Assembly: GCF_000469465.1 (NCBI RefSeq)
Contig: NZ_KI271855.1
Location: forward strand, 1-43,219
Origin: Gemella bergeri ATCC 700627
Lineage (GTDB): Bacteria; Bacillota; Bacilli; Staphylococcales; Gemellaceae
Length of the DNA: 43,219 nt
Reading direction: 5' to 3'
Of the stretch, positions 8,313-37,551 are shown piece by piece. Made by a program: the position numbers and the translations under genes. Every line of letters begins with the position of its first letter. Positions within the stretch are counted from its first letter, which is position 1. The notes below the pieces were generated by a model. It saw only the letters and a program-made list of their open reading frames with translations, ran no database searches and was not told where the DNA came from.

Positions 8313-8508
8313 ATTACTCAATCCTTTATTATTAATTTATTTTTAATAGAATGATAAACTAGTTTTTTATAAAATATTATTAGAAATATTATTTATATAA
8401 AATTTCCTTATAATTATATTAAAAATATAGTTTTTTATACAATTATAATATATAATTAAAATAAGTGAAAGAAGTTTAATTATAATTATGAAGAATTTGG
8501 GGGATAGT

Positions 8509-8874
8509 ATGGAATTATCAGAGAAGATTTTAGCTTTATTTTTATTAAATGGACATATTATACTGTCAATAATACTATTGATAGTATTTATCGGTATGAT
8601 ACTTAGTAGAAAAAATAATAATTTAGATGTTATATTAACAATGCCATGGAAAAGATTTATCGTTATTTTATTGATAATTGAATTTCTTTTAATATTTCCA
8701 TGGGCAATATTTGGATTTTATATGAGTATTTTTACTACTGATGCACCCGGAAGTAGTTTGTTTTATTTGAATTTTTCAATAGTGTCTGTTCTTGTTTCAT
8801 TGCTAATTTTTATTATATTGTTTATATCTTGTCTAATTGGAGCATATAAAAAATATAAATTATATAAAAATTAA
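8509..8874 (+). CDS. small membrane protein of unknown function
   Basis: I do not recognise the family. From the ATG at 8509 the product is 121 residues with three strongly hydrophobic segments (about 8-32, 47-72 and 82-108) and a short basic tail, so an integral membrane protein is expected. An upstream in-frame ATG at 8488 exists, but the GGGGGAT ribosome site at 8499-8505 is placed correctly only for 8509. It stands alone between uvrB (divergent) and the hairpin cluster at 8965. Confidence 0.6.
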   Translation: MELSEKILALFLLNGHIILSIILLIVFIGMILSRKNNNLDVILTMPWKRFIVILLIIEFLLIFPWAIFGFYMSIFTTDAPGSSLFYLNFSIVSVLVSLLIFIILFISCLIGAYKKYKLYKN

Positions 8875-8964
8875 TGTGAAAAGTGTATTTTCAAATCAAT
8901 GAACTACCTATTTGTTATAAAAAGTATATATTTGTGTGCAAAATATTTTTTGTTGCTTATTTTA

Positions 8965-9261
8965 TAGTGGTGAGGCAACCTTAAGAACTCTCTTTAATTC
9001 TTAGGTTTATGAGTGCATTAGCACATCATAAATCTTAGAAGTGACGTATGCAAAGACACTCGTATCATCAAAACCATAGGTTGCAGATGATACGTTAGTG
9101 TCGACTGCTGACCCGTGGCAGTAGCTACTTGCTAATCTTTTACTCGCTTTGTTCGTAAAGATTAGAGTAGCCTTACATACCCTACTTCTACGAATTTTTA
9201 CGCATTATAGATTAAAAATTCTAGAATTAACCTAAGCTAGTTGTAGGTATCCATACCACTA
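8965..9261. other. cluster of imperfect hairpins within an outer inverted repeat
   Basis: This stretch is visibly richer in G and C than the flanking DNA and is almost all inverted repeats. Hairpin 1 spans about 8994-9040 (ATTA loop at 9017-9020). Hairpin 2 spans 9055-9102 (15 pairs with a TT bulge). A small ACTGC/GCAGT hairpin lies at 9104-9122. Hairpin 4 spans 9124-9171 (GCTACT plus CTAATCTTTTAC paired with GTAAAGATTAG plus AGTAGC). Hairpin 5 is GAATTTTTA/TAAAAATTC at 9192-9221. TAGTGGT at 8965-8971 and ACCACTA at 9255-9261 could close the whole. No coding frame is evident. It lies between two convergent genes. It may be a structured RNA, a MITE-like palindromic element or a compound terminator. 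Confidence 0.6.
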
Positions 9262-9316
9262 CTAACCATTGCTGAAATATTTGTAAAGTAATATATAATA
9301 TTTTAGGTAATCACAT

Positions 9317-11167
9317 TTATACTATTTCAATAGCGGTAAAACTTCTTGGTGCGATTACTATTCCAAATGGAGTGGAGTATGATTTGTTGTTTTCAAAAAG
9401 AATTTCTCCGCTAAATTTTTTTATAAAATGAGCATCATAGTCTAAATTTATTACGCATAGTATGTTATTTCTTAAATAAGCGATACAATTATTTTTAGTA
9501 TAAACCAATTCAAAATTAGATTTAAATTTTTCTTTATTGTTATATCTAAAGTTAGATAATTTTTTATAATGAGATAACAAGTCTTCATCTTTATTGTCAT
9601 GGGCAAAACCCAAACGGTTATAAGGATCTCTAAAACCATACATACCTATTTCATCTCCATAATAAATACAAGGAACACCGGGGAGAGTAAACTGAATGAA
9701 ACTGGCAAATTTTAATAGTTCTTTTCCCTTATTATATTGTTCAAAATTTAATTTATAAGTAGGTCGTTCGTTAACGGGAATATCTTCAGGTTCATCAAAA
9801 GCTAAAACAGTTAAAACACGTTCAGTATCATGACTTGATAGTAAATTCATTAAGGAATCAAGAGCAGGTTTTGGGTAATTTTCTACCAATAAAGATATTT
9901 CATAAGCAAATTTTTCTGAATTACCATTTTTTACAAAATCAATAATCGCATTTCTCCATGGATAGTTCATCGCACTGTCCAACTGTTTACCTAAAAAATA
10001 ACGACGACGTATATTATATGAGAATTTATTTGTAGCATCTTCCCAAACTTCACCAATAATAAGAGAATCTTCATCGTAATATTTAGTTGTTTCTCTTATT
10101 CTATCTAAAAATTCATCTGGAAATTCGTCCGCAACATCAAGACGCCACCCGGAAATTCCTAAATTTTGCCAAAAGTTAAGAACACCGGTATCTTTATTAT
10201 TAATGAAATTACTATAATTTTTATTTTCTTTTATTACTGTTGGTAAATTATCAAAACCCCACCAAGAATTATACTCATAAGGAAAATTTGAAAAAGAAAA
10301 CCAATCGTAGTAAGGAGAGTTTTGTGAATTAAATGCTCCAATACTGTCATAATGATTGTAGCGATTGAAGTAAATACTATCTGAACCGGTATGACTAAAA
10401 ACACCATCTAAGATAATGCGGATATTATCATCTTTAAAATTAGTACAAAATAATTTGAACTGTTCATTAGTACCGAAATACGGATCAATTTTAAAATAGT
10501 CTGCCGTTGAATAACGATGATTTTCGGAACTTTCCATAATAGGATTTAGATAAATGCTTTCTATATTTAGCTGTTTAAAATAATTTTTTTCCTCTTCAAT
10601 ACCTAACAGATTGCCCATTAAGAAATCTGTTGCACTATAATTATTGTGAGTAATACTGGAATGAGGCACAGTATTCCAATCAATATGTCTTATTCTGTCA
10701 TCTTCATTTTTTGCTATTGTTGCTTCGTAATTATCGCTTTTTTTAAATCTATCTGGAAAAATTTGATACATAATCGATCCTTTATACCAATTTGGAGTTT
10801 TATAGTTTTTATCATAAACTGTTAATTGCCAATCAGTATATGAATGTTCATCATGTACTAATTCGGCATTTAATAGATTATTTTTTAAATAGGCGACAAT
10901 ATTATCAAATTGAAATTCAAAGTGATAAAAATACAACCCAGTTTCCAATTTTTCAAATTCTACTGAATATTTGTTATAATTATTTTCTTCATTGTTGCTG
11001 AATGTTAAACTTTTAGAAATAATCTGTCCTGTAAAATCATTTTTTATGATAATTTTCAAATCATGAAAGAAAAAATTATCTTTTATTAAAACTTCAAATT
11101 TAATATTTTCATCATTAGTAACGGCTCCCTTAGGAAGTTTATTTTGAATAGGATTGTAAATAATCAT
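9317..11167 (-). CDS. GH13 alpha-glycosidase, cyclomaltodextrinase/neopullulanase-like
   Basis: A 616-residue enzyme with an N-terminal carbohydrate-binding-like beta domain (about 1-120), then a GH13 TIM barrel starting near YQIFPDRF. The four conserved regions are present: DGVFSH (about 254-259), GWRLDVADE with the nucleophile D344, GEVWEDA with the acid E373, and SSHDTER with D447. There is no signal peptide, so it should act in the cytoplasm on maltodextrins, cyclodextrins or glycogen-derived oligosaccharides. It is divergent from the glycogen operon, which supports a role in glucan breakdown. Exact specificity is not readable. Confidence 0.88.
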   Translation of the reverse strand: MIIYNPIQNKLPKGAVTNDENIKFEVLIKDNFFFHDLKIIIKNDFTGQIISKSLTFSNNEENNYNKYSVEFEKLETGLYFYHFEFQFDNIVAYLKNNLLNAELVHDEHSYTDWQLTVYDKNYKTPNWYKGSIMYQIFPDRFKKSDNYEATIAKNEDDRIRHIDWNTVPHSSITHNNYSATDFLMGNLLGIEEEKNYFKQLNIESIYLNPIMESSENHRYSTADYFKIDPYFGTNEQFKLFCTNFKDDNIRIILDGVFSHTGSDSIYFNRYNHYDSIGAFNSQNSPYYDWFSFSNFPYEYNSWWGFDNLPTVIKENKNYSNFINNKDTGVLNFWQNLGISGWRLDVADEFPDEFLDRIRETTKYYDEDSLIIGEVWEDATNKFSYNIRRRYFLGKQLDSAMNYPWRNAIIDFVKNGNSEKFAYEISLLVENYPKPALDSLMNLLSSHDTERVLTVLAFDEPEDIPVNERPTYKLNFEQYNKGKELLKFASFIQFTLPGVPCIYYGDEIGMYGFRDPYNRLGFAHDNKDEDLLSHYKKLSNFRYNNKEKFKSNFELVYTKNNCIAYLRNNILCVINLDYDAHFIKKFSGEILFENNKSYSTPFGIVIAPRSFTAIEIV

Positions 11168-37444: not shown

Positions 37445-37551
37445 TTGATTTTTTTAGAAGGATTATTTATAATAAATAGGTATGTGATTAACTCACTTAA
37501 AAATAACTCTGTTCATATTCAAAGTGTTCAGGGCAGAAGGAGAAGATAATA
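37445..37551 (+). promoter_or_regulatory. rpmE2 promoter and leader
   Basis: TTGATT at 37445-37450, a 17-nt spacer and perfect TATAAT at 37468-37473. The leader of about 70 nt contains a GTGA/TCAC hairpin and a CTCTG/CAGGG pairing just before the AGAAGGAGAAG ribosome site. L31 leaders in Bacillota are known to be autoregulated by the protein; whether this one belongs to that class is not shown here. Confidence 0.55.

Follow-up and report, generated by a model that had tools for sequence, protein, structure and literature searches.

The closest described systems to the element treated here are the BOX elements of Streptococcus pneumoniae, with BOX-type families in S. suis, which range in size from 67 to 637 bp and whose ends have been likened to ISSpn2 (PMC3049150). 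In one case a BOX element was found fused to a T box regulatory RNA (PMC3049150). RUP, also of S. pneumoniae, is a simple 107-bp MITE with ends like those of IS630-Spn1, and the Correia elements of Neisseria have terminal inverted repeats, lie between genes and have effects on neighbouring transcripts (PMC3049150).

The locus described here lies in the window, meaning the whole stretch of 43,219 nucleotides of Gemella bergeri ATCC 700627 that was analysed, and with a probability of about 0.88 it belongs to a Gemella family of BOX-like MITEs, composite transposable elements that are non-autonomous. The members of this family have imperfect terminal inverted repeats of ~45 bp, are inserted at TATA between genes and carry TATA on both sides. 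Inside, palindromic modules form a set that changes from copy to copy, the whole element is predicted to fold into nested hairpins on either strand, and the module content differs between two genomes at the same insertion site. Three characters of a MITE are seen, namely terminal inverted repeats, a target-site duplication with empty sites, and a short (117-652 bp), AT-rich, base-paired sequence with no transposase.

As in BOX, fixed ends with terminal inverted repeats enclose a variable number of palindromic modules, a target duplication and an intergenic position are found, the length varies between strains at one site within a comparable size range, and the T box fusion has a counterpart in a glmS ribozyme case. 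Unlike BOX, the interior consists of several different hairpin domains rather than a tandem array of one boxB, hairpin modules lacking these ends are met throughout the genus as well, and no donor IS was found to match the role of ISSpn2. The composite architecture of BOX is shared, but the boxA-(boxB)n-boxC sequence modules are not, as far as could be judged from two Gemella element patterns that gave no Streptococcus match, a pattern search rather than a direct alignment to BOX. RUP is likewise short, AT-rich and non-autonomous and has terminal inverted repeats and a target duplication, but it has an IS630 partner, and the IS630/Tc1-type DDE_3 domain (PF13358) is absent from nine Gemella genomes, for which reason an IS630-type mobiliser was rejected. 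The terminal inverted repeats and intergenic position of the Correia elements are also shared, but sequence and host differ, and the Correia internal sequence, of up to 156 bp, is to our knowledge not made of interchangeable hairpin domains. The bcr1 repeat of the Bacillus cereus group, compared by description only, is similarly mobile-looking and reported to fold as RNA; it has a fixed length of ~155 bp and another duplicated target. No Gemella repeat family was described in the literature that was searched, although absence there is not proof, and the family is apparently an undescribed composite MITE, BOX-like, and separate from BOX by sequence as far as compared.

The hairpin cluster at 8965-9261, to which an earlier note on this DNA had drawn attention, is part of a larger unit at 8925-9297, the boundaries of which were set by reading related copies (Table 1). 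The outer inverted repeat proposed in that note, closed by TAGTGGT and ACCACTA, does exist as a stem, but it is the inner part of the ~45-bp terminal repeats, and AT-rich inverted repeats extend it outwards as far as TATA. These repeats are imperfect, with agreement at 33 of 47 positions between the left end and the reversed right end (TATA included), and the right repeat pairs with the left end in the predicted fold. The left end matches 10 other left ends of the same assembly at 81-98% over 60 bp, while the right end matches 9 others at 93-100% over ~60 bp. The element sits between convergent genes at 8488-8874 (+) and 9317-11167 (-), as the note had stated, and its richer base composition was also borne out: G+C is 37.4% in 8965-9261, 23.1% in 8700-8924 and 29.2% over the whole window, and only 25 of 859 window stretches of equal size are as G+C-rich (the window copy as a whole has 34%). 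It holds no open reading frame of 60 aa or more, which agrees with the view that no coding frame explains it and led a protein-coding reading to be rejected; nor does any other copy encode a protein. The promoter-like site at the right end has the family consensus form TTGCTG-N17-TATATA, and promoter-like sites in the region as a whole show no excess over shuffles.

Table 1. Features of the window copy (positions in the window)
Feature	Position	Strand	Details
Whole element	8929..9293	+	365 bp between TATA copies; the segment missing from the orthologous G006 locus L094
Element start, left boundary	8925		reads TATATATTTG
Element end, right boundary	9297		reads GTAATATATA
TATA target duplication (or duplicated TA inside), left copy	8925..8928	.	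empty site in G006
TATA target duplication, right copy	9294..9297	.	filled versus empty site comparison
Left terminal inverted repeat	8929..8971	+	family consensus TATTTATATACAAAATATTTTTTGTTGCTGATTYTATAGTGGT
Right terminal inverted repeat	9255..9293	+	family consensus ACCACTACTAACCATTGCTGAAATATTTGTAAAATAATA
Terminal sequence next to TATA			TATA + TATTTATATACAAAATATT
Closing stem, contains TAGTGGT/ACCACTA	8962-8981/9245-9265	+	17 pairs, minimum-energy fold
Second enclosing stem	8986-9001/9223-9242		minimum-energy fold
Inner enclosing stem	9036-9050/9176-9190		13 pairs, minimum-energy fold
Hairpin 1	9003..9035	+	14 pairs, minimum-energy fold
Hairpin 2	9055..9102	+	19 pairs; GGTTGC in loop/apical stem
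Hairpin 3	9104..9122	+	6 pairs, minimum-energy fold
Hairpin 4	stem 9124-9171	+	19 pairs; within genus-wide module 9117..9184 (model R1)
Hairpin 5	9192..9221	+	10 pairs; missing from sister copies b69 and b70
Promoter-like site, directed outwards, right end	9272..9299	+	consensus scan only; CTGAAA-16-TATAAT

Related copies were gathered by sequence search of genomes, above all from the assembly that holds the window (G000) and a sister genome (G006) with ~95% nucleotide identity to it; both hold relatives of the whole-element sequence. At least 20 related loci were found in G000 and ~26 in G006, all of them intergenic, and no copy examined interrupts a recognisable gene. In terms of matches, 17 places in G000 match the core and ~30-40 match the ends, weak ones included, and 37 matches to the element were found in G006. 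Among nine Gemella genomes whole elements occur only in these two; each of the others has no more than a single short match, which falls in one hairpin. Two exact-pattern scans of 84,980 species genomes, a set that omits records very near the window, gave no copy outside Gemella, and the lack of any match in phage or plasmid records or in viral contigs led a phage or plasmid origin to be rejected. The family appears to break the window's draft assembly; contigs C20, C26, C31, C39, C49, C53, C74, C76, C78, C85 and C88 of G000 end within it. Nested in one copy (L009, on contig C37 of G000) is what looks like a very small MITE of the ISL3 type, an insert of ~60 bp whose inverted ends read GGCTCAACAAAAAATCGG / CCTATATTTTGTAGACCC and which has 8-bp direct repeats, GAAAATTT, on either side.

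The main evidence for mobility comes from the comparison of filled and empty sites in these genomes, and not from observed events. At the orthologous locus without the element, G006 reads AAAAAG-TATA-ATATTTT, with one TATA, where the window has TATA at both ends of the insertion. When the joined flanks of twelve further insertions in G000 and G006 were searched for empty counterparts, the other genome supplied 11; at the remaining one (C56) the insertion site is shared by the two genomes. Since the window site and eleven further insertions thus have empty counterparts, the family is mobile. Of the 12 empty sites, counting that of the window, 11 have a single TATA against two in the filled allele, the exception being b67, which reads TACT; at local composition the chance of this is ~1e-17, and duplication of TATA and of TA within TATA are indistinguishable from these sites. 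The suggestion of a non-autonomous element, one of three offered in the earlier note, was therefore the right one, as shown by the many copies, their inverted ends, the doubled TATA and the sites that stand empty in the sister genome. The terminal repeats would be recognised by a transposase provided in trans, which would insert the element. No transposase-bearing copy was found, and paired ends in G006 (within 3 mismatches) are all no more than 660 bp apart; no autonomous IS with these ends was thus found in G006, and G000 is broken at copies, so a partner could be missing there. In-place inversion of the whole element was considered at C37/b68 and C41a/b83 and set aside, as remnants of older copies lie there and separate insertions are equally possible.

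Within constant ends the interior turns over. Copies with the same ends measure 117, 183-191, 255-258, 290-319, 342-373, 433-461 or 609-652 bp, and folded variants of at least 183 bp are predicted to have an outer terminal stem bearing one domain or two, in each of which several hairpins are clustered. Even a single insertion site may differ between the two genomes, for example C56/b116, with 257 bp in G000 and 117 bp in G006, or C21/b77, where b77 has an extra hairpin domain that C21 lacks. Hairpin tips also change direction: at one shared locus, beside a gene that we take from its sequence to be mannose-6-phosphate-isomerase-like, the 9124-9171 hairpin has its tip in opposite directions in G000 and G006 (30/34 positions agree inverted, 23/34 direct), and in another module the loop sequence is inverted in two copies (AAAAG/TTTTAG). 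Modules may have been swapped, lost or flipped via recombination between copies or at hairpins.

The hairpins of the window copy are real and far beyond chance. The plus strand of 8945-9281 folds at -104.1 kcal/mol (z -7.1), with none of 100 shuffles as good, and the minus strand at -107.7 kcal/mol (z -8.8); the minimum-energy fold places the hairpins where the earlier note had located them. On both strands z-scores of -5.7 to -13 were obtained for all folded variants of at least 183 bp, and the 117-bp variants fold modestly (z -2 to -2.7). The stem of hairpin 1 also forms in sister copies, with one pair altered on both sides. A long-range pairing that had been suggested between GCAACC (8975-8980) and GGTTGC (9079-9084) did not hold up, as the match is present in the window and broken in b68, b69, b70 and C37, the GGTTGC letters themselves being changed in b69 and b70; a conserved pairing was thus ruled out.

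The strongest alternative, though an unlikely one, is that the cluster is a structured non-coding or leader RNA selected for its fold, with copies spread by a mobile element and kept because the RNA works. A multi-domain structured RNA had also been suggested in the earlier note, and some covariation does speak for it. In the hairpin module at 9117-9184 three pairs are changed on both sides between species, and in another module double changes between C-G and U-A are seen at three pairs, in 11 cells where shuffles give 4.3; the window-type core has too little variation for a covariation test. Read from the copies' sequences, these compensatory changes show that complementarity has been kept, but they are no proof of RNA function, because palindromic DNA turnover and RNA selection would both give them. 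Moreover, both strands fold about equally well. A hand count of variable paired cells, on structures derived from the plus strand, gave 21 G-T and 12 A-C, an excess that is a weak and not decisive sign of strand-specific RNA selection, which was rejected as unproven. The earlier note had held that a lack of homologous copies, of covariation in the stems and of a transcript would reduce the cluster to chance or relic DNA; copies and covariation were both found.

Position gives a similarly divided picture of the RNA alternative. Several copies lie 25-60 bp upstream of start codons, for example those of walR-like and glmS genes, and the module persists in the leader of a Cof-type hydrolase gene; against this, the genes on either side of the window copy are convergent, the modules present at one locus are free to change, and an orientation bias toward downstream genes was rejected (22 versus 13, p 0.18, not significant). 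Nor does the element belong to a known RNA family, as no Rfam family matches it at gathering score and only the neighbouring glmS, lysine and L31 leaders match. The L31-Firmicutes ribosomal protein leader lies at window positions 37507-37542, with a score just over the gathering threshold.

It is more improbable still that the element spreads by a single-strand (HUH/Y1, REP/RAYT-like) mechanism acting on its hairpins, and not by a transposase acting on terminal repeats. The genus-wide module at 9117-9184 does occur outside TATA-type ends, hairpins face both ways and some have inverted tips, all of which would suit such a mechanism, but the unit is precisely bounded by terminal repeats and TATA duplications, whereas IS200/IS605 and REP-type systems make no target duplications and have no need of long terminal repeats. 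The third suggestion of the earlier note, a compound transcription terminator, would fit a hairpin-rich sequence between convergent genes but is highly improbable, since the only terminator-like site found by a promoter and terminator scan (9358-9375) lies outside the element, the sister genome does without the element at the window site, and many other copies are upstream of genes reading away from them, where a terminator just upstream of start codons would be costly.

With the composite MITE as the preferred reading, a copy that comes to lie in a transcribed leader may alter the expression of the neighbouring gene through its fold, as has been reported for BOX in pneumococcus. The window copy, between convergent genes, is most likely a neutral passenger. 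A TATA-type element lies between the glmS ribozyme (identified by Rfam) and the glmS start codon in G000 (L014 666-1152, contig C41) and in G006 (L083), and a hairpin array is found at the same place in three other Gemella species (L135, L138 and L149), so that five Gemella genomes have glmS leader inserts of at least two kinds. Four Gemella genomes (L142, L143, L133 and L103) have kept the hairpin module in the leader of the Cof-type hydrolase gene (MIKLVVTDVDDTLLNS), and in G006 it is expanded into an array.

The covariance model of 9117-9184 matches every one of nine Gemella genomes at 2 to 11 places and, among 148 other genomes (157 in the order were searched), gives one weak match, in a sister genus. 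In other Gemella species these hairpins occur in arrays without TATA-type ends, one of them ~1.2 kb long. It may be, though this is put forward with considerable doubt, that the genomes of Gemella draw on a common kit of hairpin modules, specific to the genus, whose members are reassorted, flipped and exchanged where they lie, in TATA-flanked elements as well as in free arrays of up to ~1 kb. The arrays would repeatedly have come to rest in the leaders of genes (glmS, between its ribozyme and the start codon, a Cof-type hydrolase and mannose-6-phosphate isomerase) and would act there as exchangeable RNA regulators. Novelty is most likely in this genus-wide reassorting kit.

Two further kinds of hairpin locus were seen among these genomes. 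One is a repeated pair of hairpins that has a -10-like site upstream and a terminator; at L137, L139, L148, L152 and L153 (G. haemolysans and G003) it is convergent to a gene for a ~34-aa hydrophobic peptide that matches Pfam Hol_Tox, which suggests putative multicopy type I toxin-antitoxin loci. At L131, L132, L137 and L104 the sequence joined to the hairpin copies is TTATTCCCACTCAAT, which appears to be the stop region of guaA in reverse complement; in G. sanguinis such copies return every 2-3 kb, an arrangement resembling islands inserted in tandem at the guaA 3' end.

These findings add a mobile, gene-free repeat family to what is known of the human commensal genus Gemella. Two close genomes provide a dozen precise filled and empty pairs, together with several sites that differ in their modules, and by comparing them insertion, module swapping and hairpin inversion can be traced step by step. 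The elements between the glmS ribozyme and glmS in five Gemella genomes pose a concrete and testable regulatory question.
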